Below are positions 1 through 32,393 of a stretch of DNA of 32,473 nt, in pieces. Source of the DNA: Verrucomicrobiales bacterium (GTDB taxonomy: Bacteria; Verrucomicrobiota; Verrucomicrobiia; Verrucomicrobiales; DEV007); the NCBI GenBank assembly GCA_028281705.1, contig JANQJH010000519.1, positions 1 to 32,473 on the forward strand. The letters run 5' to 3'. The notes under the pieces are model-generated. The model searched no databases. It saw only the letters and a program-made list of their open reading frames with translations, and was not told the origin of the DNA. The position numbers were made by a program, and so were the translations under genes. The first letter of the stretch is position 1; every line of letters starts with the position of its first letter.

Positions 1-2255
1 ATCCCAGCCTCTTTCGCGAGGCGAGCTGGGAGGAGGCCGAGGAACTGGTGGCGGAGCAAGTGGCCGAGATCGTGAAGGAGAGCGGGGGAAACGCCGTGGG
101 GCTCTACGGCTCCGGGCAGTTGTCTCTTGAGGGGCAGTACCTGGAGAACATTTTCATGAAGGGCGTTCTCGGATCCAATACGATCGAGGCCAACGCCCGC
201 ATGTGCATGACTTCGGCGGTCACGGGGTATTTCAAATCGCTGGGATCGGATACGCCGCCGACTTGTTATGACGATGTGGAGTTGGCCGATATGATTTGTT
301 TCTGGGGGCACAACGCGCGAGGTGCGCATCCCATTCTCTATTGGCGGGTGGCCGATTACAAATCTCAGAAAAACATCCCGACATTGGTGGTGGATCCGCG
401 GAGAACGGGAACGGTGATGGGGTTGGAAGACGTGAACAAGGAGAATAGCTATCATTTTCCCACAATCAACGGTGATATCTCGATCCATAATGCATTGGCC
501 TGGGCCATCATGGAAAAGCATCCCGAAGCCGTGGCCTGGGATTTCTTGAAGGAACACAGTACCGGCTGGGAGACTTATGTGGAAGAGGTGAAGAACGGCT
601 ACCGGCCGGAGGACGTGGAAGACAAGACGATGATTCCCGCGGCCGAGATCTACAAGTTGGCGGCCGTTTGGGCCAAGGCGAGCATGACGGGCCGGGAACG
701 GGGTTCGGGTGGCGTGCTGTGTATTTGGGGGATCGGCTACAATCAGCACTTGCACGGGCAGCACAATACGATGAGCCTGATCAACTTGTTGGCCTTGACG
801 GGGAATATCGGAAGGCCCGGCTGCGGGCCGCACTCGCAAACGGGGCAACCGAATGCCATGGGTGAGCGCCTCACTGGCGGACTCACGGGCCGGCTTCCCT
901 TCAATATCGGGATCGATAACGCGAAGCACCGCGCCTGGTGCGCGCAAAACTGGGGCATCCCGCAGGAACGGCTCGACGCCGTGGCGGGGCTCCAGAACAC
1001 GGGCTTTGCCGTGGGCATGATGGAGCGGGCGATCAAGGGCGATGTGCAGGCCATGTTTCTCATCTACGCGACCCACATCGACCTCCCGGATGCCTACACG
1101 CTCTCCCGGCCGGCTCTGACAAAGACGTTTACCGTGGTGCAAGATATCTATAAGGACGCACCGAACAATCTCTATGCGGATGTGATTCTGCCAGCAGCGA
1201 CCTGGGGCGAATGGGTAGGCGGTATCTATGTCCAATCGGAACGGCGTCTCTTTGTCGCTGACGGCACGGCCAACCCGGTCAAGGGATGCCGGCCGGACAT
1301 GGACATGGTCATCGATAAAGGCAAGCTGATCGCCGAAAAACTTGGATTGGATGCCGGGAAGATCTTTCCTTATGAACGGAAGGAGAACGGCTTCTACGAC
1401 CCCGAGGAAGTGTTTCGCGAGTTCCTCAAGGCTTCCAAGGGCACGGATGCGGACTTGTCGGGCATTCTCGAGGTCGAGAAGGAGACGGGAAAATCGCCCT
1501 ACGAACAGATTCGAGAGCTTCGGGGCATTCAGTGGCCGGCGCCGACGGCGGCGATTGCCAAGGCGGGCGGGACCAAGCGCCGTTACATGGGGCAAGAGGA
1601 ATACTGGCCCGAGAAGCCGTATGGAGAGTTTCGTCACCCGGATGGCAAGTTGCACATTCACATGTGCCATCAGGACTACTCACAGTACCGCGAATTGACG
1701 GATGAAATGGCCAAGGCGGGGACGGATCCGAATTTCTTCATCAGCGATCACTATGATCTCTTGATCAAGGCGCGCGATGCCGGGATCACCCCGGAACTTC
1801 CTCACGCGGATTTTTTGGGCAGAAAGATCGGCGAATGTCCTGAAGACAAGTATCCCTTCTGGTGGGCTACCGGCGTGGTCTACGAGCACTTTCACACCGC
1901 TAAGACCATTCGCTCCGGAACGACGAAGAAACTGGTGCCGGAGATGTATGTCGAGATGCATCCGGAGGACGCCGCGGAGCTTGGAGTCAAGGATGGCCAG
2001 TGGGTCAAAATCACCTCGCGCCGGGGATCGGTTGAGGCGCGTGTGTCGATTGGGCTCGACTCCGTCGTCAAGCCGGCCCGCAATACGGTGCCCAAGGGCT
2101 TTCTCTTCTCGCCCTGGAATCTCTCCGTGGCTGATTCGGCGGATCCGGAGAAGAACAAGTGGCTGGCTAACGGAACGACGCACCGGGCCTTTGATCCCGT
2201 ATCAGGACAGGCCGACTTCAAGAAGTGCGCCGCTCGGGTGGAACTCCTGACTTAA
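1..2255 (+). CDS. napA: Periplasmic nitrate reductase catalytic subunit NapA, 5'-truncated by the window edge
   Basis: Large molybdopterin (bis-MGD) subunit that reduces nitrate to nitrite. The reading frame is already open at base 3 and encodes about 751 residues, so roughly the first 80-90 residues (Tat signal and CxxC [4Fe-4S] segment of a usual ~830-residue NapA) lie outside the window. Seen here: the NARMCMTSA segment, whose Cys (TGC at 204-206) is the expected molybdenum ligand; the cofactor-binding stretches VVDPRRTGT and QTGQPNAMG; and the closing molydopterin-binding domain (WATGVVYEHFHT, then MHPEDAAELGV). The C-terminus DPVSGQADFKKCA matches the typical NapA ending, which argues against assimilatory NasA or formate dehydrogenase. 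The next gene starts 13 bp downstream with iron-sulphur partners following, so this is the enzyme of the operon. Confidence 0.92.
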   Translation, partial: PSLFREASWEEAEELVAEQVAEIVKESGGNAVGLYGSGQLSLEGQYLENIFMKGVLGSNTIEANARMCMTSAVTGYFKSLGSDTPPTCYDDVELADMICFWGHNARGAHPILYWRVADYKSQKNIPTLVVDPRRTGTVMGLEDVNKENSYHFPTINGDISIHNALAWAIMEKHPEAVAWDFLKEHSTGWETYVEEVKNGYRPEDVEDKTMIPAAEIYKLAAVWAKASMTGRERGSGGVLCIWGIGYNQHLHGQHNTMSLINLLALTGNIGRPGCGPHSQTGQPNAMGERLTGGLTGRLPFNIGIDNAKHRAWCAQNWGIPQERLDAVAGLQNTGFAVGMMERAIKGDVQAMFLIYATHIDLPDAYTLSRPALTKTFTVVQDIYKDAPNNLYADVILPAATWGEWVGGIYVQSERRLFVADGTANPVKGCRPDMDMVIDKGKLIAEKLGLDAGKIFPYERKENGFYDPEEVFREFLKASKGTDADLSGILEVEKETGKSPYEQIRELRGIQWPAPTAAIAKAGGTKRRYMGQEEYWPEKPYGEFRHPDGKLHIHMCHQDYSQYRELTDEMAKAGTDPNFFISDHYDLLIKARDAGITPELPHADFLGRKIGECPEDKYPFWWATGVVYEHFHTAKTIRSGTTKKLVPEMYVEMHPEDAAELGVKDGQWVKITSRRGSVEARVSIGLDSVVKPARNTVPKGFLFSPWNLSVADSADPEKNKWLANGTTHRAFDPVSGQADFKKCAARVELLT

Positions 2256-2268
2256 GCCGGGAGGGTAG

Positions 2269-2904
2269 GTGGTGGGTAGATCGATCCAGCAGATCAGCCG
2301 CTCGGGTTTCCTTCGGGCCTTCCTGGTCGGAGCGATCTTTCCCTTTCTTCTGCCGCTTCTGGAAAAGCTTCCCCGGCGCCGGCAGCCGCGACGTTACCTG
2401 CGGCCGCCGGGCGCTTTGGCCGAGGACGAGTTTCTTCAATCCTGTATCGGCTGTGGACAGTGTGCCAATGTTTGTCCCAACAAGTGCATCACGCTCTTCG
2501 GGTTGGAGGCCGGCATCGAGAATCTGGCCACACCCAAGATCACGGCACGCGCGCAGGGATGCATCCTTTGCATGGCCTGTACTGAGGTCTGTCCCACGGA
2601 CGCCCTGGAAAAGCTCGAGCCGACGCCGGCTGGCATGGCCATGGTCGACATGGGGCGGGCCGTGGTGGCGGAAGATCTTTGTTACTCGTTTGCCAAGCGG
2701 ACCTGTGGCGTGTGTTACCGCGCCTGCCCGCTGCCGGGCAAGGCGATGACACTGGGCCTCTATGAGCAGCCTCACGTTCATGCGGAACACTGTGTGGGAT
2801 GCGGACTCTGTGAACAGGCTTGCGTGCAGATGCCGCAAGCGATCCGTGTGATTCCCAAGATGGAACTCACTCAAGACGCACTCCAACTAGCCCAGGCCTC
2901 CTGA
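2269..2904 (+). CDS. napG: NapG-like ferredoxin with four Cys clusters
   Basis: 211-residue iron-sulphur protein with four Cys groups: CIGCGQCANVCP (residues 59-70), CILCMACTEVCP (from 98), CGVCYRACP (from 146) and CVGCGLCEQAC (from 175). This is the pattern of NapG, the periplasmic ferredoxin that hands quinol-derived electrons toward NapA together with NapH. Start is GTG at 2269 (a second GTG follows immediately) behind a G-rich gggagggtagg stretch; napA ends 13 bp upstream. The N-terminus has a hydrophobic stretch (about residues 14-30) but reads SRSGFLRAF, so the second Arg of a Tat motif is missing. It could be Tat-exported with a degenerate motif, or membrane-anchored. The family is clear; the topology is inferred. 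Confidence 0.85.
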   Translation: MVGRSIQQISRSGFLRAFLVGAIFPFLLPLLEKLPRRRQPRRYLRPPGALAEDEFLQSCIGCGQCANVCPNKCITLFGLEAGIENLATPKITARAQGCILCMACTEVCPTDALEKLEPTPAGMAMVDMGRAVVAEDLCYSFAKRTCGVCYRACPLPGKAMTLGLYEQPHVHAEHCVGCGLCEQACVQMPQAIRVIPKMELTQDALQLAQAS

Positions 2905-2908
2905 GAAG

Positions 2909-3853
2909 ATGCGCGCCGGTCGATTACTCCTAGCCCTCTCCATCGTCACTCGCTTGGCGGTGGTCTTGCTTCTCTGTGTGTTGGCCTTGCTCACCGAATA
3001 TCACAATCTCAAACTGGCCTACAATCATCCGCGCCTGGTGGAACTGAGCGAGGGTAAAACGGCTCGTGTTCTCTATGAAAAGACCGATGCCTTCTTTTCC
3101 CGGTTCAGCGAGGATCCGGCGGAGGCCGCGGCCAAGAGCGGAGGCATGACGTGGTCGATTCGCCTGGCTGGCATTCCGTTTACGGATCCCGTGGCGGCGC
3201 TCACGGTTGCGGTGAAACGCCATCGCTTTGAGACGGGATTCGCCTTGGGATTGATCGCTCCCCTGACGCTGGCCTTGCTCTTTGGACGCGTCTTTTGTGC
3301 CTATGTCTGCCCGGCGTCCCTGCTCTTTTTTACCATCTCAAGGATCCGTAAACTGCTCCTTCGGTTCTTATATTTGCCTGAGATGCAGCTCAATCGTGGT
3401 TTCGCCTGGGGAATCCTCGCGGGAGGGCTGGGGGCGGCCATTTGGTTAGGCCATGGCCTCTGGAGCCTCATTCTACCGTACTTCGCCCTCGGACAGACGC
3501 TCTTTCACGGGATCGCCTACGGGACCCTTTCATTTGCCTTGGGAAGTCTCGTTGTTTTTGCGGCCGTTGACCTCGTCTTGGGGAAGCAGTTCACTTGCCG
3601 CTACGTCTGTCCCACGGGAAGACTCTTGGGCGCCATTGGGCGGAAATCGGTCTTCAGCCTGAACCGCGAAGCATCGAAGTGCCTCAGCGCCTGTCAGGCT
3701 TGTGTCGATGTGTGCCCCATGAAGGTGAGCCCCAAATTGGACGAGACGCTCGATTGTTCCATGTGCGGGGAGTGCCTCACGATTTGTCCTAGCAAATGCC
3801 TGTCTATTGGTGTGAGACCGCGGCAGGCAACCCTTGGTCCCAATGATGCGTGA
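2909..3853 (+). CDS. napH: NapH-like membrane ferredoxin (quinol dehydrogenase component)
   Basis: 314-residue integral membrane protein with a first transmembrane helix at about residues 5-28 and further helices at about 110-128, 165-185 and 200-225. It carries the two CxxxCP loops typical of NapH (CAYVCP from Cys130 and CRYVCP from Cys230) and a C-terminal pair of [4Fe-4S] motifs (CLSACQACVDVCP at about 258-270, CSMCGECLTICP at about 281-292). In the NapGH system this protein takes electrons from quinol and passes them to NapG. It begins 4 bp after the napG-like stop, with GAGAAG just before the ATG, so the two are translated together. A soluble loop of about 80 residues (35-105) separates the first two helices. 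Confidence 0.87.
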   Translation: MRAGRLLLALSIVTRLAVVLLLCVLALLTEYHNLKLAYNHPRLVELSEGKTARVLYEKTDAFFSRFSEDPAEAAAKSGGMTWSIRLAGIPFTDPVAALTVAVKRHRFETGFALGLIAPLTLALLFGRVFCAYVCPASLLFFTISRIRKLLLRFLYLPEMQLNRGFAWGILAGGLGAAIWLGHGLWSLILPYFALGQTLFHGIAYGTLSFALGSLVVFAAVDLVLGKQFTCRYVCPTGRLLGAIGRKSVFSLNREASKCLSACQACVDVCPMKVSPKLDETLDCSMCGECLTICPSKCLSIGVRPRQATLGPNDA

Positions 3854-4472
3854 TCTTAATCAGCGATTCCTCATCGTCTCCCTCCTCGCCATGCTGGCTC
3901 AGGTGACTTCAGCCTGGGCGCATCATTTCAAGGGGCTGCCTCACTACAACTATTTTGAAAACTATCCTCAGGTTCCCGAAGAGGAGTTCCTTGGTCGCGT
4001 GGGCGATTATGAGGTGTCGCTCGTGGTCTACGATTTTCAGGGAATCGATCGAGAGAAGGTGGAGGAACCGGAGAGTGTCCGTCTCTTCCTCGTCATCTTC
4101 AATCTGCGGACGAATGCCGTTTACGGAGGACGGCTTCACCTGGAGATTTTGGATCGCGACCGCGTGGTTCACGAGGAAACCCAGGTATCATCGCAACTGG
4201 AGAACCTCTATGCCATGCACCGGCAACTGCCGGAGGATGGCAGATACTCTCTGAGGCTGACACTGCGGGATGAAAATGATTTGCAGTGCCGCATCCCCTT
4301 TGTCTTGTCGTCCCAGAAGATCCACTGGGGCAAGTGGATCGGTCTGGCGCTCGGTCTTCTGGTCATCGTGGCGGCGGTCGGGGCGCGCCGGGCTCGTGTC
4401 CGCCTGGATCGTCAGGCGGCGTCGGACAAGCGCCGTCGTTCCCAACGCACGGAAACGGTTCTGAGCCCTTGA
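3843..4472 (+). CDS. Exported single-span protein of unknown function in the nap operon
   Basis: About 209 residues; start taken at ATG 3843 (or the adjacent ATG 3846) rather than an upstream TTG, giving an 8-11 bp overlap with the end of napH. It has an N-terminal signal peptide cut near AWAHH, a conserved-looking block HHFKGLPHYNYFENYPQ right after the cleavage site, a beta-rich extracytoplasmic domain, one transmembrane helix near residues 160-180 and a short Arg/Lys-rich cytoplasmic tail. The layout suggests a membrane-anchored periplasmic domain. I recall similar HxxGxPHYxYxENYPQ starts in exported proteins linked to NapH/NosR-type gene sets, but know no assigned function. The His cluster at the mature N-terminus could bind a metal or heme iron; that is inference. 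Confidence 0.75.
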   Translation: MMRDLNQRFLIVSLLAMLAQVTSAWAHHFKGLPHYNYFENYPQVPEEEFLGRVGDYEVSLVVYDFQGIDREKVEEPESVRLFLVIFNLRTNAVYGGRLHLEILDRDRVVHEETQVSSQLENLYAMHRQLPEDGRYSLRLTLRDENDLQCRIPFVLSSQKIHWGKWIGLALGLLVIVAAVGARRARVRLDRQAASDKRRRSQRTETVLSP

Positions 4473-4491
4473 ACATTCGAACCCGTTGAAA

Positions 4492-6075
4492 ATGGTCATC
4501 GCCGAGTCAGAGTCTTGGTTAGGACGTTGGTGTGGACCGGCGTCGTTCCGGAGCGCCGTCGGCGATGGAACGGTGAACGACGGCATTCCCACCTGGATGG
4601 GAGTTGCGGGCATCATTGCAATCATTTTGGCCTCTCACCTCATCGTGCATTTCCGGAGAAAGAGATCCGGTCGGTCTTCCTACGAGACCATCAATCTTCT
4701 CCGGTTTCGCCCGCTCAATGCCTTGGTGAAGAAGTCCTGGTTTCCGCTCATGATGCAATCGAGCGCTTTGCTACTCTTTCTCCTGGTCATCACGGCGGGA
4801 CTGATTGGGCACGAAACCAACAATATTGGTCCGGTCATCACGTGGACTTGGTGGTGGGTGCTTTTGATTTTTCTGGTGTTGGGATTCGGCAAGGCCTTTT
4901 GCATGGTTTGCCCTTGGGAGGCGGTGACGTCGATGGTGACTTCACTTTCGTTGAAGTCGCGGGTGAAAAAATTGGGCTACGAAAAGCCGTGGCCCAAATG
5001 GGCGCGGAATATTTATCCGGCGATTCTCTTTTTCGTCGTTCTCACATGGTTCGAGCTGGGGCGCGATGTCACGCGATCGGCTTCAATGACGGCCATTCTC
5101 GCGATGCTCATGGTCGCCATGGCGGTCATGGTGGGGATTGTCTACGAGAAGCGTGCTTTTTGCCGGTATGGCTGTCTGGTGGGGCGGGTGAGCGGTCTTT
5201 ACGCCATGTTCGCGCCAGTCGAGTTGCGGGCGGCCTCGGCGGAAGTGTGTGCCGGCTGTCGCACCAAGGACTGCTACAAGGGGACGGAGACCACGACCAG
5301 TTGCCCGACGTCGCTTTTTCCCTCGAAGGTTGATGAGAACACCTACTGCACCCTGTGCACGGAGTGTGTGCGTTCCTGTCCACACGATAACATCGCCATC
5401 AATGTGAGGCCTTTCGGTGTGGACCTCGAGCGCAAGGAGCGGTTCAAATGGGACGAAGCCATCCTGGCAATCGTCCTTCTCTCACTCACGAGTTTTCACG
5501 GGTTGACCATGACACCCCAGTGGGTGCGGATGAACCAGGTCTTGCGAGCGGAGTTCAATCTGGGGGCCTCGGCGTGCTTCACGCTTTTGATGGCACTGGT
5601 CGTGCTGCTTCCGATACTCCTCTTTTGGGTGGCAGCCAAGCTAGCCTACCGCTTTGCTGGCACCGAGCGTGTCTCCGTCTCCAGAATATTCCGAGCTTTT
5701 GCCTACTCATTGGTTCCCATCGCTTTGTTCTATCATCTGGCGCATAACTGCATGCATTTTTTCACCGAGGGCCAGCACATCATCCCGTTACTCAGTGATC
5801 CCTTCGGGTTTGGCTGGGATCTCTTTGGCACCGCCGGTCGATCCTACCCGCCGATCCTGTCGGTCTCGACGATCTGGGTTCTGCAGATTCTTTGTATTGT
5901 CATTGGGCATGTCTATGGCGTGGTTTTGGCGGATCGTTATGCCAATCAGCTCTATGATCGCCAATCGAAACCGGTCTTCAAGAGCCTGCTTCCCCTCTTG
6001 GCGACCATGATCCTTTACTCGAGCTTCAGTGTATGGCTCGTGATGCAACCGATGGACATGCGGTCTGCCATGTGA
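4492..6075 (+). CDS. NapH/NosR-like membrane polyferredoxin
   Basis: 527-residue multi-spanning protein (start taken at ATG 4492; a TTG lies two codons upstream). Helices near residues 35-52, 85-105, 112-132, 165-180, 190-212 and several in the C-terminal half. Cys motifs: CMVCPWE (Cys137), CRYGC (Cys224), CAGCRTKDC (from 253) followed by SCP, and CTLCTECVRSCP (from 286). The CxxxCP-type loops plus the ferredoxin pair are typical of NapH and of the membrane half of NosR/RdxA proteins. Unlike NapH it has a long extra membrane region after the clusters (about residues 325-527) with several His residues, including HLAHNCMHFF. Probably a second quinol-linked electron-transfer module for the operon; the true partner is not known. 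Confidence 0.8.
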   Translation: MVIAESESWLGRWCGPASFRSAVGDGTVNDGIPTWMGVAGIIAIILASHLIVHFRRKRSGRSSYETINLLRFRPLNALVKKSWFPLMMQSSALLLFLLVITAGLIGHETNNIGPVITWTWWWVLLIFLVLGFGKAFCMVCPWEAVTSMVTSLSLKSRVKKLGYEKPWPKWARNIYPAILFFVVLTWFELGRDVTRSASMTAILAMLMVAMAVMVGIVYEKRAFCRYGCLVGRVSGLYAMFAPVELRAASAEVCAGCRTKDCYKGTETTTSCPTSLFPSKVDENTYCTLCTECVRSCPHDNIAINVRPFGVDLERKERFKWDEAILAIVLLSLTSFHGLTMTPQWVRMNQVLRAEFNLGASACFTLLMALVVLLPILLFWVAAKLAYRFAGTERVSVSRIFRAFAYSLVPIALFYHLAHNCMHFFTEGQHIIPLLSDPFGFGWDLFGTAGRSYPPILSVSTIWVLQILCIVIGHVYGVVLADRYANQLYDRQSKPVFKSLLPLLATMILYSSFSVWLVMQPMDMRSAM

Positions 6076-6660
6076 ATGTCAATTGACTTGGAAATGAGCA
6101 CGCCGATATCAAGACGTCAGTTGTTTCGTGTGGGGTTGGGCGATCTGCGTTCGCTAGTCACGACAGAGAGCGCTGGCGAGGCGCCCCCGGTCTACCGGCC
6201 ACCTGGTGCCGGACGGGATGAGGCGGCGTTCTTGCAGAGTTGCCAGCGCTGCGGCGCCTGTGTGGCGGCCTGTCCCTATGATGTCATCAAGACCTTTGGG
6301 CCCGCTTCCGGTATCCTCGAAGGCACGCCCTATCTCGTGCCGGAAACCGATCCCTGCCGCTGGTGTCCGGAGATGCCCTGCATCGAGAGCTGCCCTTCAG
6401 GCAGCCTGGCGCATGGTGAATCGGGTGGGGTGCCGCCGGTGGCCAAAGTGCGATTGGATCTGGATGCCTGTCTCACGAGCGAGGGCATCCTCTGCGATAC
6501 CTGTAGCCATTTCTGTCCCGAGAGCATTGGTGCCATTCGAATGGTCCGGCGCGTTCCTGTGCTCGATACGGACAGGTGCGTGGGCTGCGGGATGTGTGTC
6601 CACTACTGCGAATCCGAGAAGCAGCCTTTCTCACTCGAACCCCTGCCGGAGCCTCTCTGA
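6076..6660 (+). CDS. napF: NapF/NapG-like ferredoxin with four Cys clusters
   Basis: 194 residues, ATG directly abutting the preceding TGA. Cys groups: CQRCGACVAACP (from 56), CRWCPEMPCIESCP (from 94), CDTCSHFCP (from 140) and CVGCGMCVHYC (from 168). The N-terminus SRRQLFRVG resembles NapF, which has a twin-Arg but no following hydrophobic stretch; here the residues after it (DLRSLVTTESAG) are also polar, so a cytoplasmic location is likely. NapF is thought to act on the cytoplasmic side in NapA maturation, while NapG works in the periplasm, so this gene may serve iron-sulphur assembly or electron supply for the membrane polyferredoxin just upstream. The symbol is the best family match, not certain. 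Confidence 0.75.
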   Translation: MSIDLEMSTPISRRQLFRVGLGDLRSLVTTESAGEAPPVYRPPGAGRDEAAFLQSCQRCGACVAACPYDVIKTFGPASGILEGTPYLVPETDPCRWCPEMPCIESCPSGSLAHGESGGVPPVAKVRLDLDACLTSEGILCDTCSHFCPESIGAIRMVRRVPVLDTDRCVGCGMCVHYCESEKQPFSLEPLPEPL

Positions 6661-6683
6661 TTGATTGCCCCATTTCTCTGACC

Positions 6684-7682
6684 ATGTATCTCCCTCAAGC
6701 ACCAACAGTAAGACCGTCGAGAAATCGATCGGCTCATCGTGTTCACCGATTGATCGACCCTCATCTGCGCCACATTCACAAATTGCGTGTTCAGCTGACT
6801 GACGCCTGCAATTTTCGCTGCTTTTATTGCATGCCGGAGAACGCTGTTTTCGCACCGCCGAACTCCTTGTTGTCCAGCGCGGAAATTGTTGAGATCGTGT
6901 CAGGATTGGTCGACCAAGGAATTGACGAGATCCGGCTTACCGGCGGTGAGCCGACATTGCGGAAGGACCTCGATGAGATCGTTGTCGGTCTGTCGAGATT
7001 GCCTCTGGCCAAGTTCGGGCTCACGACAAACGGTTTTCTTTTGGAGAACAAGCTTCCCATGCTTCGGAATGGAGGCTGTGAATACATCAATGTGAGTTTG
7101 GATAGCTTGGACCGGGATTGCTATCACCGGATCAATCGTCGAGATGCCTTTGATCCGGTTCTTCGCGCCGTGAAGCGGGCCATCTCCATGAAGTTCAAGG
7201 TCAAGATCAATGTGGTCATCTTCCGCGGTATCAATGATGGGGAAATTCACGATTTCATCCGCTTCGCCGAGGCCAACCGGGTGGAAGTGCGGTTCCTTGA
7301 ATACATGCGCATCGGGCTGGGAAACACGAGTTTGTCAAAGCACTTCATGCCGATGGCGGAGATCAGACGTGAGATTGAGAGCCAGCATTCCCTGCGTGCG
7401 GTGCCCGGACCGATCGATGCCACGGCTCGCACCTTCGAGACGGGATCTGGAGCGCGCGTGGGCTTCATCGCCTCCGAATCCCAGCCCTTCTGTTCGGGTT
7501 GCTCGCGACTCCGTCTCTCTGCCAAAGGCAAGTTGCGTGCCTGTATCATGTCGGAGGCGGGCATCGATCTGCACGGCGTGGCACGCCGGGATTATCCGGA
7601 TCTGCTCAAACAGGTGATGGCGCTCAAGCCGGTGGGCCGGCTCGATTCCATCGATCAGCCGATGCATGAGATCGGTGGCTAA
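6684..7682 (+). CDS. moaA: GTP 3',8-cyclase MoaA (molybdenum cofactor biosynthesis)
   Basis: Radical SAM enzyme for the first step of molybdopterin synthesis from GTP. Start taken at ATG 6684 (MYLPQAP), giving 332 residues; an open frame extends back to 6576 but would overlap the previous gene. The SAM cluster motif C-x3-C-x2-C is at Cys42, Cys46 and Cys49 in TDACNFRCFYCMP; TGGEPTLR follows as the SAM-binding GGE segment. The second cluster C-x2-C-x13-C is at Cys270, Cys273 and Cys287, specific to MoaA. The protein ends in Gly-Gly, the C-terminal tail needed for activity in this family. It lies 23 bp after the NapF-like gene, which fits supply of cofactor to NapA. Confidence 0.93.
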   Translation: MYLPQAPTVRPSRNRSAHRVHRLIDPHLRHIHKLRVQLTDACNFRCFYCMPENAVFAPPNSLLSSAEIVEIVSGLVDQGIDEIRLTGGEPTLRKDLDEIVVGLSRLPLAKFGLTTNGFLLENKLPMLRNGGCEYINVSLDSLDRDCYHRINRRDAFDPVLRAVKRAISMKFKVKINVVIFRGINDGEIHDFIRFAEANRVEVRFLEYMRIGLGNTSLSKHFMPMAEIRREIESQHSLRAVPGPIDATARTFETGSGARVGFIASESQPFCSGCSRLRLSAKGKLRACIMSEAGIDLHGVARRDYPDLLKQVMALKPVGRLDSIDQPMHEIGG

Positions 7683-7710
7683 CCAGATCCATATTGAAAG
7701 GACATTGAGT

Positions 7711-8166
7711 ATGAAGATTGAGCATCTCTATATCTCTCCGGACCACAACTTTTTCGGCCATCACGGTGGGCCGGCCGGTGAGACACCGATCCAGGCGGTA
7801 GACGAGGTGGCCTGTGATGCGGGCCGCGGCATTCGCGGCGATCGGTTCTATGACTACCGGCCGGATTACAAAGGGCAGATCACATTCTTTTCCAGTGAGG
7901 TCTACGAGACGCTTTGTCGTCAGTTGGGGGTCACGGATCGGGACCCTTCGGTCTTGCGGCGAAACGCTATCGTATCCGGGGCCGATCTCAATGCGCTGAT
8001 TGGTCAAGAGTTTGAGGTTCAGGGAATTCGCTTTCTCGGCACACAGGAGGCGGCGCCCTGTTATTGGATGAATGGTGCTGTATGCCAGGGGGCGGAGGAG
8101 GCCTTGCGTGGTCAGGGCGGTCTTCGGGCCAAGATTCTGAGTTCCGGTGTTCTTCGGTGTGGGTAG
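7711..8166 (+). CDS. MOSC-domain protein
   Basis: 151 residues from ATG 7711, with a GAAAGGA ribosome-binding site about 9 bp upstream. The sequence follows the MOSC fold: an N-terminal strand region, GIRGDRFYDYR, QITFFSSEVYETL, RRNAIVSGADLNALIGQEF, and the conserved Cys in APCYWM (Cys117), which in MOSC proteins is proposed to carry sulphur for the molybdenum centre or bind the cofactor. Located right after moaA and at the end of the nitrate reductase operon, so it probably acts in handling or sulphuration of the molybdenum cofactor. Which molybdoenzyme it serves cannot be told from the sequence; NapA itself does not need a MOSC sulphurase in studied bacteria. Confidence 0.83.
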   Translation: MKIEHLYISPDHNFFGHHGGPAGETPIQAVDEVACDAGRGIRGDRFYDYRPDYKGQITFFSSEVYETLCRQLGVTDRDPSVLRRNAIVSGADLNALIGQEFEVQGIRFLGTQEAAPCYWMNGAVCQGAEEALRGQGGLRAKILSSGVLRCG

Positions 8167-8311: not shown

Positions 8312-10291
8312 ATGAAGACGATCGAAAGAATCCTCTCGGCGATTTTTTTACTTGCAACAGCCATGCCGATGTGGGGCGCCGAGCGCTTCCCTTGGCGGGA
8401 TGATTTGGAGGAGGCGCGGGCAGTCGCGAGAGCGGAGGACAAGCCGCTCTTGATCGTGTTCCGCTGTGAGCCTTGAATCGATTGTCGATTATTTGACGGG
8501 CAGGTTGTCCGTCCTCCAAAACCGTTTCGCGACATGGCCCGGAACTATGTGGCGGTTCGCGTGACCAACGTTGATCGAATCAATCTGAGCGACTACGTAT
8601 TTGACTACGATTTGACCATGGCCATCCTGCTGGCCAATGCCGATGGCACTGTTTACCATCGCTATGGCGGCCGTTCCCATCGTTCTCCCATGGACATGGA
8701 GGGATTGGTGGATCTGATGGAGAAGGGGCTGGTAACGCATCGGGAGTATCTGAATCATCCGGAGCCTCCCGAGGCCAAGCCGCCGCAGTTCCTGCCCCAA
8801 CTCATCAACGAGCAGCTGCGCGGCCGGATCAAGCCGGTGTTTGGTTGCTTCCACTGTCACTATGCGCGTGAAGCGCAACAAGTGCTCGCTCTGGAAGCGG
8901 GGCGGTGGAGGCCGAATCAGTTCTGGATCTGGCCATTGCCCGAACGCCTCGGCCTGGTCATGGATCAGAAGCGGCAATATCGAGTCGGGCAGGTCGTTCC
9001 CGGTTCGCCGGCGGATCTGGGAGGCATCAGGAAAGGGGATCTCCTCGATCGGTTAGGCGGGAGGCGGATTCTGACGAAGTACGATATCCAGTGGATTCTG
9101 CACCAGCGTGAGGACGATGCGGGAACCCTGGCCTACGCGGGGCGGCGCGGAGAGCGCCAGATAGAGAGTCTCTTGAATCTCGAGGAAGGGTGGAAAGTGG
9201 GTGACCCGGAGGACTATTTGTGGCGGGTGCGCAATGTTTACACGGAGCACATGATCAAATTCCTTCCGGCACCCGGTTTCATTGGCCGGCCACTGTCTCA
9301 GAATGAGCGCCGTCAGTGGGACATCGCAGGGGACGAGTTCGCATTGATGGTGACGCAATTGAACAACAGCGCGCATCTGTCTGGGATTCGCCCGGGCGAT
9401 GTGGTGACGGGGGCGGGATACCGGAGATCCTTTGGCACGACGAGAGATTTCTACGCCTGGTGTGAAGCCCAGCGGCGCGCCGGCCGGGATCTCAAGGTTC
9501 ACTTGTTGCGCCGGGGAAAGAGGATGAATGTCATGATGGGAATCGAGCATCTGAACGCCTCCCGGGTTGAGAGAGCTCCGCGGGTGAAGTTAGGCTTTAT
9601 TGTACAGGAACTGCCCGGTGATGCCGGGCTGCGTGTGGGCCACGTGGATGATGGGTGCAGTGCCGAACGGGTGGGGATTGCCTGGGGCGATCGAATGTTA
9701 CGCGTGGACGAGCATCCGGTGAGGGACATGGAGAGCTTGGCCGCCATCATGACCCAGAAGCTTCCGGGCGACCTCATTTCGATGGACTTGAGGCGAGGCT
9801 CGGAGCTTCATCAGTTCAGTTTTGTGCTGCCCGAGGAAGGAGAGCGGTTGAGCAATCTGGCGGTCCTGAGTCAACCGGCGGAAAAAGAGGGTCAGGTCCT
9901 TGACTGTGTCGTTTCGCTTCGCTTGCCTCCTGACAAGCACATCTACAGCGCCTTTCATGAGGGGCTGGGTCAGCCGACGCAACTGGAGTTTCGCGGACGA
10001 GGCTATCGTCTTATCGGCGGTATGCAGGAGCCTGCGGCGCGCGAGTGGCGTGATCCCAGTGGAGAAAGGCACAGAGTGTTGGATGGGGACGTCGAGCTGC
10101 GACAACGGATCGAAGTAACCGATGCCAAAGACTTTTACTTGCTTCTGCACGTCTACGCCCAGGTCTGCGACGATCATTCTTGTCACGAGTTTCGTGCCAT
10201 GGTGGCGAGTGATGGAACGAGCCGGAGATTCTCGGAGTTTCGCGGGCGATTCGAGCAGCATCCATTGGTTCCCGTGGTGTCCGGTTTATAA
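8312..10291 (+). CDS. Candidate selenoprotein: exported thioredoxin-like/PDZ/DsbD-alpha-like protein with in-frame TGA (Sec55)
   Basis: Reading through one TGA (8474-8476) gives 659 residues; without it the gene breaks into a 54-residue stub and a 585-residue piece from ATG 8534 that lacks a signal peptide. Domains: signal peptide 1-23; thioredoxin-like part about 30-150, with active site C52-E-P-U55-I-D-C58; a CFHCH heme-c type motif at 179-183; three PDZ-like domains at about 221-292, 341-415 and 425-505; and a DsbD-alpha-like C-terminal domain at about 540-650 with Cys619 and Cys624 in CDDHSC. A SECIS-like hairpin follows the TGA. The likely role is thiol/selenol redox work in the periplasm. 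I recall a public family name of the type 'Trx7/PDZ domain-containing (seleno)protein', not verifiable here. Alternatives: a disrupted gene or a sequencing error at one base (TGC or TGT to TGA). Confidence 0.78.
8495..8513 (+). promoter_or_regulatory. Bacterial SECIS-like hairpin downstream of in-frame TGA
   Basis: GACGGGCA (8495-8502) pairs over all 8 positions with TGTCCGTC (8506-8513), with one G-U wobble, leaving a GGT loop (8503-8505). Twenty-six nucleotides separate the TGA (8474-8476) from the first loop G. The published bacterial SECIS rule asks for a short stem-loop with a G in the first loop positions at about 16-37 nt from UGA; this meets it. The core GCAGGT is the same as in the E. 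coli fdhF element, whose loop lies 18 nt after UGA. The hairpin lies within the coding region, as bacterial SECIS elements do. Confidence 0.72.
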
Positions 10292-10574: not shown

Positions 10575-12464
10575 ATGATGAGGACACGATGGATTTTTAC
10601 ATTGCCGTTGACGATTGGCATCCTTTCTAACGCCGCCTTTCTCCGAGCGGAGACCCGTTCCTTCGACGGACAGGGAAACAACGAGAAGGTGCCGAAGTGG
10701 GGAATGGCGGGTAGTCAGTTGCAGCGATTCGCCTCGACCTACTATGGAGATGGCATGGCCTCCATGGCGGGGGCTGATCGTCCGAGTCCGCGATTGGTGA
10801 GTAATGAGGTGGCCAGCCAGATGGCGTTGACGCAGTCGGCGCGGGGCCTGAGTGACATGACCTGGTGTTGGGGGCAGTTCTTGGATCACGACATCACCCT
10901 GGTCGTGCCCAGTCCCGATGAGTTCATTCCCGTCATGGTCGAGGAGGGGGATCCCATGGCTCCCATGATCCCCGTGATGCGTTCGCAGTCGGATCCGGAA
11001 ACGGGTTCGAGTCAGGACAATCCGAGGCAGCAGATGAACTCGACCACGGCGTTCATCGACGCCTCGAACGTCTATGGTCCGTCGGCAGAACGCGCTACGG
11101 CGTTGCGGACTCACGAGGGCGGGACTTTGATCATGGGTGAGGGTGATCTGCTTCCGTGGAACACCGCCGAGCTGGAGATGGAGAATCCGAATGGCCTGCC
11201 GTTAGGCGAACTTTACATGGCGGGCGACGTGCGGGCCAACGAAAATCCCGCCTTGATCTCGATGCACACACTTTGGTTGCGGGAGCACAATCGCTGGGCG
11301 AACTCCTTGGGCAAGATGCATCCCGATTGGACGGATGAGGAACTCTATCAGCACGCGCGTCGCATGGTCATGGGGGAGATGCAGAACATCACTTTCCAGG
11401 AGTTTCTTCCCGGCTTGTTAGGTCCCCACGCCCCCGCGCTGGATGAAGGCGGCTACGATCCGGAGATGAATCCCCAGATGTTCAATGAAGTCTCCGGAGC
11501 TCTTTACCGGATCGGGCATACCATGGTCTCGGCCCATATCATGAAGGTGCGGGATGACGGCAGTGCTGCGGCGGACGGAAGCTTCAGTTTTAAGGACGCC
11601 TTTTTTCAGCCCAAGCTGGTCGATGAATCGGCCACGGTGGCAGAGATTCTCAAGGGAGTGGCGAGCAAGCCCATGCAGGAGATCGACGCTTTCGTCGTCA
11701 ATGACTTGCGAAATTTCCTCTTTGCCGACGCTGGGCACGGAGGGATGGATTTGATTTCGATCAATCTCCAGCGAGGACGGGATCACGGGCTTCCGTCGTT
11801 CAATCAGGGGCGGGCCGCCCTTGGACTGACTCCCTACGAGAGCTTTTCCGAGATCACGGAGAACGCCGACGTTGCTCAAGCGTTGGAGAGAGTCTATGTC
11901 GAGATCGATCGAGTCGATCTATGGATCGGCGCCGTGGCGGAAGATCACTTGCCGGGCGCGAGTGTGGGAGAGACCATTGCGGCGGGGCTGATCATGCAGT
12001 TCGAGCACCTGCGAGACGGCGACCGCTTCTTTTTCCTTTGGGATTCTCAATTGACGGAGGATGAAAAGGCGATCATCAAGGCCACATCGCTGTCGGACGT
12101 GATCCGGAGGAATACGGATGTGACATCCCTGCAAGCGAACGTCTTCATGGCGCCGCCGAGGGAGACTTGGATGGACTCGGATGGCGACGGCGTGGCGGAC
12201 ATCAGTGAGGTGATCGCGGGGACCGATCCGGCAGACGCGCAGAGTCTGTTTCGTCTCGTTTCGACAAATCGAAGGGAAGGGTTTGTCGTGCTCGAGTGGG
12301 CGAGCGTCCAAGGAAAGACCTACGTCACTCAGCAGGCGTCCTCGCTCGACCAACCGTGGGCGAATGTGGGGGCGCTGGAAGCGACCGAGGATACGAGTCG
12401 GTACGAAGTGCCCGTGCTTGATGGTGAACGCGAGCGCTACTACCGGGTGGTCGTGGGACGTTGA
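10575..12464 (+). CDS. Secreted animal-type heme peroxidase with Ca-binding repeat and C-terminal beta domain
   Basis: 629 residues starting at tandem ATGs (10575/10578); signal peptide at about 1-25 (cut near LRAE). The animal haem peroxidase family is shown by the distal His105 in WGQFLDHDI, TAFIDASNVYG (about 157-167), NITFQEFLP (about 275-283), the proximal His315 in YRIGHTMV, and the late motif NLQRGRDHGLPSFN. The catalytic domain ends near residue 530. Then comes a DSDGDGVADISEV calcium-binding (thrombospondin-3/dockerin-like) repeat and a final beta-rich domain ending in YYRVVVGR. It probably oxidises halides or phenols with H2O2 outside the cell. Similar bacterial proteins exist (peroxicin/peroxidockerin types). 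Its stop lies 18 bp from the convergent lipoprotein gene. Confidence 0.88.
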   Translation: MMRTRWIFTLPLTIGILSNAAFLRAETRSFDGQGNNEKVPKWGMAGSQLQRFASTYYGDGMASMAGADRPSPRLVSNEVASQMALTQSARGLSDMTWCWGQFLDHDITLVVPSPDEFIPVMVEEGDPMAPMIPVMRSQSDPETGSSQDNPRQQMNSTTAFIDASNVYGPSAERATALRTHEGGTLIMGEGDLLPWNTAELEMENPNGLPLGELYMAGDVRANENPALISMHTLWLREHNRWANSLGKMHPDWTDEELYQHARRMVMGEMQNITFQEFLPGLLGPHAPALDEGGYDPEMNPQMFNEVSGALYRIGHTMVSAHIMKVRDDGSAAADGSFSFKDAFFQPKLVDESATVAEILKGVASKPMQEIDAFVVNDLRNFLFADAGHGGMDLISINLQRGRDHGLPSFNQGRAALGLTPYESFSEITENADVAQALERVYVEIDRVDLWIGAVAEDHLPGASVGETIAAGLIMQFEHLRDGDRFFFLWDSQLTEDEKAIIKATSLSDVIRRNTDVTSLQANVFMAPPRETWMDSDGDGVADISEVIAGTDPADAQSLFRLVSTNRREGFVVLEWASVQGKTYVTQQASSLDQPWANVGALEATEDTSRYEVPVLDGERERYYRVVVGR

Positions 12465-24108: not shown

Positions 24109-27100
24109 TCAACCGGCGTTGGAGGGCGTTTGAGCGTCTTCGGCGGGCAAGCGCTTCCATTGGAAGGGATAGCTGTTGACGATCCCGTCGATGAGTGTGT
24201 GGAAGTGATAGTTGTCTTTCTGCACTGCGCCAACGATGCGCTGGACGGCGAGTTCATCGTAGTACTCGAGTTGGCGTCCGAGACCAAAACTGAGCATTTT
24301 GCGGGTGATTTGACGCGTGAGGTCTGGGAGGCGCTGCTCGATGAGAACGTCGCGCAGGCCTTCCAGCCCGGCAAAGGTGCGGCCGTTGGGAAGCTTGCCT
24401 TCGGAATCGATGGCCTGGCCCCGGTGGGTTTCGCGATAACGGCCAAACCAGTCGTAGTTTTCCAGGGAGAATCCTAACGGATCAATCTTGGCGTGGCAGC
24501 CGGCGCATTGGGGCGCGCCGCGGTGGAGGGCCAGTTTTTCTTTCAGCGTGAGATCGCGTTTGCGGGCGATCGATTCATCGAGTTCACCAGCATCGGGTGG
24601 TGGCGGCGGGGGTGGCGTGCCGAGCACGTCGTCGAGAATGTACTTGCCGCGGACCACGGGACTGGTGCGTCCCGGGAAGGAAGTCACGGCGAGTACGCTG
24701 GCGTGTCCCAAAATGCCTCCGCGTCTCGGGTCGTTCAAGGTTACGCGGCGCATGTGCTCGCCCTTGATACCCGCGATCCGATAGTGTTTTGCCAGTTCCT
24801 CGTTGAGATAAGTGTAGTTGGCGTTGATCAAATTGTGAATGGGGCGGTTTTCTTGAACCAGGGAATGAATGAACATGGAAGACTCGTGACGCATCGCCGC
24901 CATGAGGGTATCGGTGCACCAGGCGTTGTCGATCGGATCAAGACGCACGCGGGTGCCCACGTGTTCATACTTGAGCCATTGAGAGGCGAACTCCTCGCCC
25001 AAGGCGCGGGACCGGTCATCTCGCAGCATGCGCTGCACTTGAGCTTGTAGAGTGCCAGGATCCCGCAGTTGGCCGGCGGCGGCGAGATCGAGCAATTCTT
25101 CGTCCGGAGTGGAAGCCCAGAGGAAGTAGGACAGACGACTGGCAAGTTCCCACTCATTCACCCGGTGGTCCTGACCTGGATTGGGAGGAGCGGCTTCGAT
25201 TCGAAAGAGGAAGTGGGGTGAGACCAGGGCAAACCTCGCGGCCGGTTGGATGGCTTGAAGGTGTGAGGCGCCACTTTTCCGCGCCGCTTGGTAGCGGGTC
25301 ACCAGTTCGTCGACTTCGGCGCCGGTTGGCGGGCGTCGATAGATCAGTCGAAGAAACTTCTGGAACAGATTCGCCGGATCGGTTTCTGCGGCCAGCGGCC
25401 AGGCGGGTTGGCGGTCTTCAGCGAGAGCCCCCGTGACGACCGCTTCCGCCGCGCCGATGTAGCGCTCGAGCAAGGTGGGCTGGATGAAAAGGGTGTTCGC
25501 GCTATTGGCGAAGCCGCTGATGCCGCTGAGATCGTGGGGAAAGCCGTTGGCTGGACGAAGATCGATTCCGAAGAGGTCGCGCACCGTGTTGTTGTACTCT
25601 GTGTGGGAGAGCCGCCGCGCGCGTTCATAACCGGGATTCTTGACCTGGGTGTAGTCAAATTCGATCACCTCGCGATTGATCCAGGCCTCCATCGCGGCGT
25701 ATTCCTCGGCTGATGGCTTGGGTTCGTCCTCAGGCGGCATCTCGCGGTTCTTGACGCGTTCCAGTACATTGATCCAGAGGTCGCGGCTCTTGACCAGAGG
25801 CGTTTCTGTGAGGGCGGTTTCCATGTCGAGATCACCTTTGCCCACGGAGGAATCGTGGCATTCGAAACAGTGTTTCTCGAGCAAACCAACGGCGTGTGCC
25901 CGCGCCTGGGCGTGGTCCTCCGTAGTCTCCTGGGCCACGGCGGGCTCTTCGGTCCTCTCGGGGCTGGCCGAGGTTTGTTCCTTCCGGCCGCCTAACTGAT
26001 GGATGGTGTTGTGGATGACGCGCCGCACGCGTTTCCCCGTCGCATCCTCGACGTCGATCTTGATCTCCATGCACCACGTCGGTGCGATGTCGGGGATGGT
26101 GAGAAAGACCGTCTTGCCGTCGGCAGAAACGGTGGCTGCCGTGACCTCGAGCGGCTTTTCGTTGTAATGTCTCGAACCGTAACTCTTCGTCCGCTTCAGG
26201 TCCCAGATCTTGATCTCGTAGTTATCCGTTTGGGTGGCCGACTGGCGGTCCAGCGGGTCGGTGAAGCCGAGTTCGATTCCGGTGCTGCGGGCTTTGAGCT
26301 CGATGGGCAGGTTTTTGGCCTTCCCCGTGGCGCGGATGCGGTAGAAGCCGCCGTCCTGGTGCTTGCTCCCGGCCCAGGCGAACATCCCGGTGGTGTAGAG
26401 TTGACCGTTTTCCGGATGGAACCGGCCGCGCATGATTCCCGTGGGAAAATCGAGCCCGAGGCTCACCATGCCGCCCTGGGCTTGTCCGTCCTCCATCTTT
26501 TCGTGAGGCACAGCAAAGACGCGACCCGTGCCATAGCTCAGGTTGAGCAGCTTGCCGTTCAGGGCTCCCCACTGGGCGTCCTCGGGGACCCAGAGCAATT
26601 CGCCAGGGCTGCGGTCGAAGGCGTTGGTGATCCAGCAAAGCGGCTGTTCCATGGCCTCGTCGCTTGAATCAGTGACGTCGTGATAGCCATACATATTCCC
26701 GTAGAAACCGCCTTCCTTGACGTAGTTGATCCGGTTCTTCGGGTTCCAGTGTCCCTCTTGGTCGGTGACGATGTAAGTGCCATCGGGATTGAGGCAGACG
26801 CCGTTGGCCGCGCGGAAACCCGTGGCCAGAATTTCCGTTTTGGAGCCGTCCTTGCTCACCCGGAGGAGTGTTCCGTGATGGGGGACCACGGCGGCCAAGG
26901 CGTGCCGGGCCGACTTGGCGTAGTAGAAATTGCCCGCCTCATCGATCTGCAGGCCCATGGCGAACTCGTGGAAATGTTCGGTGACTTGGTGGTCGTTATT
27001 GAAACACTCGACGAAATCGATCTCCTCATCGCCATTGAGATCGTGCAGTTTGGCTAACTGATCTCGACAGGTGACATAGATATGGCCATCGACCCACTTG

Positions 27101-30100
27101 ACGCCCAGAGGCTGAAAGAGGCCCGTGCAGATGCGCTTCCAACGATGTTCACTGAAGCTGCCGTCGATACCGTCGACTAACCAGACATCGCCCAGCCAAG
27201 TGGCCACGGCGGCCCGCTTGTTTCCCGGCAGGAAATCGAATCCGCCGATACGCATCCAGCTGTTCCAGGGATTCTCATTGGGGTAGGTGATCTCATCGAC
27301 GGCGAAGGGATCATCGTCGTTGCCCATCTTGCCCTGGGTGACCACCGTTTCCGTCCAGTGGGCGGGGCTGCCTTTGGTGTATTTCGTTAGGTCCTCGGCT
27401 TCCCCGGCGATGAGGGAGGCGATGAAGAGGCCCTGGGCGTCCGCCTTGCTCGAGAGCAGGGTGACATTGATCGGCGTGTCCTTGGCGGCGACGGACATCA
27501 CCTGGTAGCCGTCGCGCACTTCGACGGTGGCCGCGGTCTGGCCCACGAGGAGGGCCGTGACTTCCGCCGGCGAAACACGCAAGTGGAGGTCGTTGGAGGA
27601 CTTTCCGATGTTTAGCGTGCGGCCGAACACGGGCGTGGCGCCACCTTGGACCAGGCTCGGTGATTCCAGCACCGTGGCATCCCCTACGGTGTATTTGATG
27701 ACGATCTTGTTCCCGTGGATGTATTGGCCCTTGAACTGGGTCCAGGCTCGGGGCAGAGGACCGTAGGGCTTGCCATCGCGACCGAGGAAGCGAGGATCGG
27801 ACCAGGATCCGTCCGCCGGGTTGGCCCAGCCGGGTCCGACGGGATTGACCAGCGTCTTGTCGCCCACGATGCTGGTATGCGTGCCGTGCGACTGGTCAAA
27901 GGCGATGCCTTTCCAATCGACGAACTTGTTACCCGACCACGCGGCGGCGACCCGCATGGTGTCGTGATCATAGACCATCCAGTGACGTCCCTTGCTCACG
28001 CCGCCGGGACCTTCATCCAGGCGAATCGCGATGGCCTTGTAGGCGATGTTCCCCGGCGCGACTTGAAACGTCCAGTCGAGCATGGGGCCAAAGTTCATGC
28101 GCTCGTACTTGGGTCCCCGGGCATAATCGATTTGTTCCTGCGTCAGGGTGCCCTCGGTGCTCATGCCTTTGGGCAGGGAGGTCAGGTATTCCGGGGTGAT
28201 CTCGACATACTCGGATTTGTTGTTCGTCTTGACGAACTCCTCACGGATGTAGTGAATGACATCGTAGGCTGCGGAAGGCGTGAGCCAGGGCTGCGGGGGC
28301 ATTTGATTGTAGCCCTTCTTCATCGTGAGATAGAGGCTGTGGGGATCCTTGCCATTCTTGAAGGGTTCCTTCCAGAACGGCCGGGACGTGGGCAAGGAGC
28401 CTGCTTTCTCCAGATTGCCGTGGCAGGCGAAACAGATGCCTTGATAGATCTTCTCACCCCGAGCAAAGGCGTCGTCGTCCCACGCGGCAATGATGCTGGC
28501 GTGATCGACATCCGCTAGAGGCCGCCGGGTCACATTGGCAAAACGAACTTTGGCGCTATCTGCTTGAAGGCGGAGAGGACCCTGCGCTACCGGCTCACCT
28601 TCGGTTTCCTCTTCCTCAATGTCCTCCGCTTCCTCTTCATCCTCCGCTTCCTCTTCCTCAGATTCTTCATCCTTCGCTTCCTCTTCCTCAAATTCCTCCT
28701 CCTCCTCCTCTGGTTTTTCGAGTGCCTCCTCTTCGATTTCCTCGTTCTCGTAGAAGAACAGCACTTGCTCTTCATCGATATCACCTTCGCTAATCAGGTA
28801 GACGGCGTTTTGCGTGAGTTCTTTGCGGAAAAAGAGGGCGTGCGAAATGTGACCAGGGAAGCTCTCGGGCCCCGGGGGAAAATCGACAGAGCAGGTGCCA
28901 AGTTTGAACACGTGGTCGGGGTTGTCCGGCCTGCTAAAGTCGGCATTCTGAGCCGCGCGTTTGCCGTCGACGTACAAGCGCGTGCGACCGTTCTTGTGGG
29001 TGATCACCGCAATGTGCCACCCGCCGTCATTGACTTTCAATCCCTCGGCCGCAATGTCGCCTAACCATCCGATATCATAGACGAGGCGATCGCCTCGGAC
29101 AAAGAGTACCTTGCCGTCCGGTTCCCATTCGCCGCTCGCGGGAGCCTTGGAAAACAAGGGGCCACTCTGATAAGTGCGGAAACGTAGGGCCATGCTGAAC
29201 TCCTCGCCCATGTTGAGCGACTTGGCCTGCGCCCCGCGAATCACCTTGAGTGCGGCTCCGTCGTCTCCCTTCCAGTCGAGCACGGGTTTGACGCGTTCAA
29301 TGGGTTCGCTGGCGCCGGTGAGTTCGAGATCCTGATCGCTCAGAGCTTCGGCGAAGAATTGGAAATTGCTGATATCGCCTTCCCAGTGGCGGTCGCCATC
29401 AGGAAAGTCATTCGCGCCCGCGGCAATCTTGATCACACTGCCTTCATTGTCGGGCGCGGTGAAGTCATCTTTCTCGGCCAGTTTTTCGCCATCGAGGTAG
29501 ATCTCTGCCAGGCCATCCTTGGTCCGCAGAGCCACGGTGTGCCACTCGCCGTCGGTGACGTGTTTCTCCGAGGAGACGACGCCGACCCAACCGATGTCGT
29601 AGTGCAGGACGTTTTCCGAAATAAACAGAACCTTGTCGTTTTCCCGGTGCCTTCCGTCAGGGCTGAGTTTGCCGAATAGCGGGCCTTGTTCCACAGTGCG
29701 GAAACGCATCACCACGGTGAAGTCTTTCCCCATGTCGCAGAGCACTCCTTGTTCTTTGGTCGAAACGAACCACGGGGAGGGCGGAGCGCCGTCCTCTTCG
29801 TCGTCAGCTTCCTCGTCTTCCTCTTCCTCCTCGCGTTCCGTTTCGAATCCGTAGATCGTGCGTCCTTCCACGCGCACCCGGTCGTGAATCTGGATTCCGT
29901 TGAGCCAGACCGAGAGGTCGGCGGCGTCCCGGCCCACGTGTTGCACCGCGACCTGCATGTTCTGCCAGGTTCCGGGCTTACCACAGGCGTTGGTCGACGG
30001 CGCGGCCACGCCGAAGATGGCTCCGCAGGTCCGTTCATCATCCAGACGGTCGCTCCCGTAGGAATCGACAATCTGGATTTCCCATTTGCCGTCGATAAAG

Positions 30101-31167: not shown

Positions 31168-31362
31168 GAGAGTTATGGGGAACGAACCCTGATTCACGGG
31201 ATAGTTCTACTGCAAGACGTGCCAACGCGGGAATTATTGTTCAAATCTGGCGCCGGGTCGATGGCAGTTGGTCGTTGTCTTGGCGAGCCTTCTCGCTCCA
31301 CCGGGGCCTGGGCTGCGGGGTGAGTAGGATAGATTCGCTGGTCATGGGAGCGTTTTCTTCTT
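31168..31362. other. Divergent intergenic region between the giant gene and the amidohydrolase gene
   Basis: The 195 bp must hold the promoters of both genes. It contains several short direct and inverted fragments but no convincing -35/-10 pair or operator. Confidence 0.4.
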
Positions 31363-32376: not shown

Positions 32377-32393
32377 GGGGATCGGGTAGGTCA

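Follow-up and report, generated by a model that had tools for sequence, protein, structure and literature searches.

A divergent Trx7/PDZ protein of a Verrucomicrobiales bacterium with a probable selenocysteine codon, a covarying SECIS hairpin and a DsbD-like C-terminal domain

The closest described relatives of the protein considered here are catalogued as NCBIfam NF041199, the Trx7/PDZ domain-containing (seleno)proteins. One review, in the entry available, lists a PDZ domain-containing protein with a Thioredoxin_7 domain and the motif CxxU, where U is selenocysteine (Sec) (PMC9312934), and the corresponding entry of another names NF041199 itself, with CxxU and one Sec (PMC13188914). Both entries credit the Sec form to the 2008 GOS study, the relevant part of which records a 'putative secreted serine protease MucD' with CxxU, a predicted SECIS, two Sec sequences and 12 Cys homologues (PMC2398784), and the citation together with the motif suggests that this MucD entry is the NF041199 family. 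In the relevant passages of a 2021 paper, MucD (CxxC/U) is fused with a PDZ domain and a Prx-like selenoprotein is fused with a PF11412 domain (PMC9402790), and the accessible part of a paper on planctomycete selenoproteins makes no mention of PDZ (PMC4807772). In the open-access literature, so far as its available excerpts go, the chemistry of the Trx7/PDZ family is not worked out.

The protein described here is encoded within a window of 32,473 nucleotides, which is the whole stretch of DNA that was analysed, from a Verrucomicrobiales bacterium. It belongs to NF041199, with residues 27-409 aligning to profile positions 2-388 of 390 at 342.5 bits (cut-off 300), and at the CxxU/CxxC position where the family has Sec or Cys it has the TGA of codon 55 together with C52. 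Since the protein passes this cut-off, the family and its Sec form are to be counted as already known. As the preliminary description of this DNA had stated, and as the sequence confirms, the frame from ATG 8312 to the TAA at 10289-10291 has a single internal stop, the TGA at codon 55 (8474-8476), which lies in the context R-C-E-P-[TGA]-I-D-C-R-L-F-D and is followed by 604 further open codons with PDZ matches and a DsbD-like domain. We put the probability that this TGA specifies selenocysteine in a Trx7/PDZ protein at about 0.95, a figure that does not extend to the electron-relay role considered further below. The gene and the features nearest to codon 55 are as follows.

8312 to 10291, forward strand: predicted gene for a Trx7/PDZ selenoprotein of 659 residues, Sec55 included, ending in TAA (NF041199, 342.5 bits, cut-off 300)
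8312 to 8380, forward strand: predicted signal peptide, covering roughly residues 1-23 (sequence MKTIERILSAIFLLATAMPMWGA; residues 2-17 modelled as a helix; cleavage point estimated)
8393 to 8569, forward strand: Thioredoxin_7 domain, residues 28-86 (PF13899, E 8.7e-11)
8465 to 8485, forward strand: redox motif C52-E-P-U55-I-D-C58 (sequence and homologue comparison)
8474 to 8476, forward strand: TGA at codon 55, read as selenocysteine (TGA or a Cys codon in 31/31 homologous loci read)
8495 to 8513, forward strand: bacterial SECIS hairpin, GACGGGCA-GGU-UGUCCGUC (loop 26 nt after the UGA; pair conservation and covariation)

The N-terminus is signal-peptide-like, with the modelled helix at residues 2-17, in agreement with the signal peptide proposed earlier, and its extent is a sequence-based estimate. 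The table-11 ORF at the locus starts at ATG 8534 and has 585 aa without the signal peptide and the active site, just where gene callers had been expected to start, so that plain table-11 ORF finding drops both the export signal and the active site and the protein would be misannotated. The Thioredoxin_7 domain spans the TGA, because residues 28-86 together match positions 2-60 of the PF13899 profile at 42.3 bits (cut-off 27), compared with 22.6 bits for the 54 aa before the TGA alone, and the part after it alone does not match Thioredoxin_7 with the threshold at E 1. This bears out the earlier statement that the residues downstream of the TGA continue the same fold.

Homologues were sought in 57 genomes (the window's own and 56 relatives), with matches in 38. 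The 31 loci read were taken from the 34 listed matches covering residue 55, matches to other parts of the protein alone being left aside, and the three omitted are weak ones without internal stops (G035:C221, G011:C320 and G013:C10; E 2e-4 to 5e-4). In this first set, the codon aligned to codon 55 is TGA in 12 of the 31 loci and TGC or TGT in 19, with nothing else at the site, a restriction well beyond what chance would give; Cys codons in homologues, which had been suggested as a check, are therefore present, and unrelated residues are not. The window's genome itself has six homologous loci, with TGA in the window gene and on contigs C57, C111 and C460, and Cys on C448 and C113. When named genomes were scanned, 379 relatives came up, whose records are titled for the most part Verrucomicrobiota or Planctomycetota, and among the best 80, which were kept, 33 have TGA and 47 have Cys at the site. 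Seven of these 80 (L129, L130, L131, L133, L177, L189 and L205) are counted as the same as first-set loci, six of them with TGA, and 78 of the 80 were picked by a pattern with Pro before the site, C..CH downstream and the site residue free, while L166 and L193, which failed the pattern at Pro (RUIIU), were read by eye. An NF041199 search of 387 genomes of the phylum found the family in at least nine genomes at E 1e-30 or better, which is a lower bound, as four candidates per genome were scored and the window gene was not among the rows.

In a tree of 88 rows with the site masked, at least five Sec/Cys changes are needed, and well supported branches force two. No end branch of the tree is longer than that of the window row (3.41; best identity 32%), so the place of this row is unsure, and the window copy is 22-33% identical to 24 aligned family members. 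MAG records titled Akkermansia muciniphila or Klebsiella pneumoniae also contain NF041199-type genes (L139, L164, L192 and L194), and the Klebsiella title above all looks like a mislabel.

The hairpin downstream of codon 55 is kept with compensatory changes in the TGA genes and is not kept in the Cys genes. It has 8 bp and the loop GGU, starting 18 nt past the UGA with the loop 26 nt past it, and it lies within the limits that the available part of a recent review gives for bacterial SECIS elements, namely a loop of 3-9 nt, a stem of 4-16 bp, a G at the first or second loop position and a spacing of 16-37 nt (PMC13188914). TGA and Cys loci are not told apart by the folding energy of the whole 57-nt stretch, compared with synonymous shuffles (mean z -0.41 vs -0.19, p 0.21); only the specific stem, a repeated one read off the 57-nt folds, distinguishes them. 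In the 12 TGA loci of the first set 90 of 96 pairs form, as against 62.2±3.1 in 2000 synonymous shuffles (maximum 73), while the 19 Cys loci form 45 of 152, as against 46.0±3.9. The hairpin register was chosen on those 12 TGA loci, which makes their test post hoc, and because the register came from them, the later TGA set is the test that counts. There, 31 named TGA loci form 240 of 248 pairs (167.8±5.0 in 1000 synonymous shuffles, maximum 183), 47 named Cys loci form 99 of 376 (107.8±5.9 in shuffles), and the 25 TGA loci that are new among the 31, some of them near-copies of one another, form 196 of 200.

Covariation was assessed in an alignment (A4) of 39 TGA rows, in which the window gene and five loci of the first set join the 33 named TGA loci, with six duplicates and the loci L117 and L119 excluded. 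Within it, 96.8% of cells pair, a value that falls to at most 52.6% when the partner is slid by 1-3 columns, and 20 cells are changed on both sides compared with 3.1±1.5 in shuffles. The covariation score is 0.315 against 0.130±0.016, which 0 of 500 shuffles reach, and by the weakest of the measures 3 pairs have changes on both sides, a number reached by 22 of 500 shuffles. This covariation evidence for the SECIS of the Trx7/PDZ family is new here, if modestly so. With its covarying hairpin, the Sec/Cys homologue set lends itself to clean tests of how SECIS elements function and of the reasons for which Sec is retained or lost.

Variants of this arrangement occur among the homologues. In the loci L022, L136, L149, L162, L176, L190, L191, L201, L166 and L193, a second TGA follows the first at a distance of three codons (R-U-I-P-U or R-U-I-I-U), and there is a single hairpin, with its loop 35 nt after the first UGA and 26 nt after the second; in the seven double-TGA loci that were checked, the first-TGA register holds only 2-4 of 8 pairs. 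Judging by these sequences, a single SECIS may act for both Sec codons of such homologues; the 2026 review, in its entry for the NF041199 family, gives one Sec (PMC13188914). The hairpins of L166 and L193, from a search that kept only stretches with at least 6 pairs, have 8 of 8 pairs each, and a second stretch that the same search returned for L166 was dropped as chance. A clade with R-C-A-P-U-x-x-G, consisting of L052 (on C460), L117 and L119, retains Sec with Gly in place of the +3 Cys and has hairpins of 6-7 of 8 pairs, L117 and L119, which are TGA loci from the phylum search, having 7 of 8 each.

The preliminary description had proposed a check for selA, selB, selC and selD, of which all except selC are present in the window's own genome. 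The matches are to selA at 493 bits, to selB at 265 bits in a frame that runs off the contig end (L057 1-1647, G000:C423), and to selD at 364 bits with one in-frame TGA, at CGU-AAK (L059, G000:C92). Upstream of this selD on the same strand, L059 has a frame with thioredoxin-like and cytochrome-like (CVECH) parts as judged by eye. In the same assembly, which is 91% complete in 678 contigs, selC was not found by Rfam search, by pattern search or by ARAGORN: the best tRNA-Sec match of the Rfam search is called tRNA-Ser by ARAGORN, a 15-base pattern taken from the selC of relatives gave, with one mismatch, six loci of which none is tRNA-Sec by ARAGORN, and ARAGORN run on the selD, selB and selA stretches gave no tRNA-Sec. 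Among three congeners, selC is present in G001 and G002 and was not found in G003. Because two congeners carry selC, its non-detection in the window's genome would reflect a gap in the assembly and not absence of the gene. Within the 57-genome set, the best 20 selC loci, from 20 genomes, are all tRNA-SeC with anticodon tca by ARAGORN, and these 20 genomes include seven of the nine with a TGA homologue, the window's own genome and G003 being the exceptions. All nine genomes that carry a TGA homologue have a selA match, which in two of them (G009 and G026) is partial and below the cut-off, compared with 2 of the 13 that have only Cys homologues (Fisher p 2.2e-4).

Selenocysteine was weighed against two other accounts of the TGA. 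One is a nonsense mutation, or an error of sequencing or assembly, in an ordinary Cys gene whose product would be dead or made from ATG 8534; a lone TGA on a MAG contig could indeed be an artefact, and the window copy is divergent, yet other loci have TGA at the same codon together with the covarying hairpin, Cys homologues are without that hairpin, all 8 of its pairs are intact in the window copy, and the 604 codons past the TGA stay open through the PDZ matches and the DsbD-like domain, all of which makes such an accident very improbable. Equally little weight is given to decoding of the UGA as Cys, Trp or some other residue by an unusual tRNA, or to general read-through. The genome has selA, selB and selD, with SelD carrying an active-site TGA of its own, tRNA-Sec with a TCA anticodon is present in two congeners, and the hairpin fits the bSECIS model, and these points outweigh the one in favour, that no selC was found in the window's assembly. 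Of 14 ORFs of the window that were checked, moreover, 7 use TGA as an ordinary stop, so the genetic code is not reassigned. The reading of codon 55 as Sec, and with it the selenocysteine protein claimed at the outset, is supported by the Cys/TGA homologues, the sel genes and the covarying hairpin.

For the active site of the selenoprotein, the preliminary description had given U-x-x-C, with residue 55 where the first Cys of CxxC would be. The position agrees with the AlphaFold model (mean pLDDT 68.6, and 62 for residues 51-60), in which residue 55 comes immediately before helix 56-66, itself after strand 46-50; this is the position that the first Cys occupies in a thioredoxin CxxC. This placement, the match of residues 28-86 to Thioredoxin_7 positions 2-60, and a +3 Cys that is kept in 80/80 named loci would all suit a selenoprotein in which U55 and C58 are the working pair and C52 is structural, a reading to which we give somewhat less than even odds. 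Set against it is the residue at -3, which is Cys or Sec in 31/31 first-set loci, in 80/80 named loci and in L117 and L119, while the residue at +3 is Gly in L052, L117 and L119. Because the -3 Cys or Sec is kept throughout the homologues read and three members are without the +3 Cys, CxxU may be a better description of the redox pair, and the earlier U-x-x-C is to that extent doubted as a pair; on the sequences at hand, the motif is refined to C-x-P-U-x-x-C. The entries available in the two reviews likewise give CxxU (PMC9312934; PMC13188914).

Beyond the thioredoxin domain, the protein has the following features.

8846 to 8860, forward strand: C179-F-H-C-H183, a CxxCH motif, the form of the c-type haem attachment motif (CxxCH in 29/29 first-set loci reaching it)
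8984 to 9115, forward strand: PDZ 1, residues 225-268 (PF17820)
9332 to 9541, forward strand: PDZ 2, about residues 341-410 (PF13180, with three stretches in the protein; NF041199 end at 409; model strands and helices 345-410; limits estimated)
9593 to 9820, forward strand: PDZ 3, residues 428-503 (PF13180; past the family-shared part)
9893 to 10183, forward strand: nDsbD-like C-terminal domain, about residues 528-624, with C619-x4-C624 (PF11412, 18.5 bits, and Foldseek)

The CxxCH motif, which may carry haem c, is also found in the 80 named loci, of which 78 were selected with the motif required and two were read by eye. Complete first-set homologues have 420-465 residues and 78 named homologues end 363-376 residues past the site, whereas the window protein continues for 250 residues past residue 409 with the third PDZ and a beta domain. 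The latter matches PF11412 (DsbD_N) at 18.5 bits, under the Pfam gathering cut-off of 25, and is for that reason not filed as a PF11412 member by sequence. When it was folded alone from the single sequence, the best model had pLDDT 78.8 and the other four 38-56, and the Foldseek hits to the tail model at ranks 1-12 are all titled DsbD N-terminal domain, ScsB or complexes with the DsbD N-terminal domain, rank 1 being 6dps_E (E 2.0e-4; TM 0.55 by query and 0.67 by target), a structure that the whole-protein model also retrieves, at rank 44. The C-terminal domain thus appears DsbD-like, resembling the nDsbD fold in one good model of five, and C619 and C624 could be its Cys pair. A search for the same tail in 189 genomes of the order gave a good match in the window's own genome only and one weak match, in G090 (E 0.002, with one internal TAA), and among the homologous loci (tblastn, E 1) it was found in the window gene alone; in the relatives examined the tail would therefore seem to be missing, which does not mean that it is unique. 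What is new in the protein, again modestly, is a divergent multi-domain member of the family with a DsbD-like tail, and this tail suggests a redox partner.

Upstream of the selenoprotein gene are a NapA/NapG/NapH-like cluster of molybdoenzyme and ferredoxin (48-6660; matches under the NCBIfam cut-offs), which is probably cut by the contig start, then moaA (6576-7682) and a MOSC protein (7666-8166), and adjoining downstream is an animal-type haem peroxidase (10575-12464; PF03098, 486.9 bits), in which a bacterial TSP3 repeat also matches below threshold. In these neighbours (the nitrate-reductase-like cluster, moaA, MOSC and haem peroxidase) no argument was seen for a function shared with the selenoprotein gene. 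Farther along, the reverse strand has a 2362-aa frame with ThuA, 3-keto-disaccharide hydrolase, lectin-like, cytochrome c and PSD/PSCyt domains (24109-31197) and, at the contig end, a Group II intron match (32381-32457; RF00029, 41.6 bits, cut-off 40).

From the cis signal and the sel genes, synthesis of the protein would proceed by the ribosome reaching the UGA at codon 55, where the hairpin, 18 nt past the UGA and with its GGU loop 26 nt past it, would recruit SelB with Sec-tRNA(Sec) so that Sec is inserted, and the product would leave the cytoplasm by means of its signal peptide. Sec55, positioned directly ahead of the first helix of the thioredoxin active site, would be the attacking selenol, and Cys52 (in C-x-P-U) and/or Cys58 (in U-x-x-C) would close the selenenylsulfide. 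The PDZ domains might hold a substrate or a partner protein, and the nDsbD-type module would pass reducing equivalents to or from the Sec-thioredoxin module within one polypeptide. Because the nDsbD-like domain has two cysteines of its own, C619 and C624, a periplasmic thiol-selenol relay between the nDsbD-type module and the Sec-thioredoxin is tentatively put forward as the most likely role of the protein. It is distinctly less probable, and on the whole unlikely, that the one exported polypeptide is a complete electron relay, with its PDZ domains linking the Sec-thioredoxin to a disulfide module of the nDsbD type and perhaps to a c-type haem. If it were, a single soluble protein lacking the membrane part of DsbD would combine thiol-selenol exchange with electron transfer through haem.

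Compared with known systems, the window copy has in common with the NF041199 family the Thioredoxin_7 and PDZ domains, the exchange of Sec and Cys at the same codon and the SECIS-like hairpin, and it differs in adding PDZ 3 and the nDsbD-like domain beyond residue 409. With the N-terminal domain of DsbD and ScsB (PF11412; PDB 6dps, 6dnv, 1l6p and 6c29), the tail appears to share the fold and two cysteines late in the domain, C619 and C624 in the window protein, whereas here the domain is fused to a Sec-thioredoxin/PDZ chain and is under the Pfam cut-off. The fusions described in the relevant passages of the 2021 paper join selenoproteins to the same two kinds of domain as in the window protein, PF11412 and PDZ, but the Sec domain in the PF11412 fusion is peroxiredoxin-like, while that of the window protein is Thioredoxin_7 (PMC9402790).
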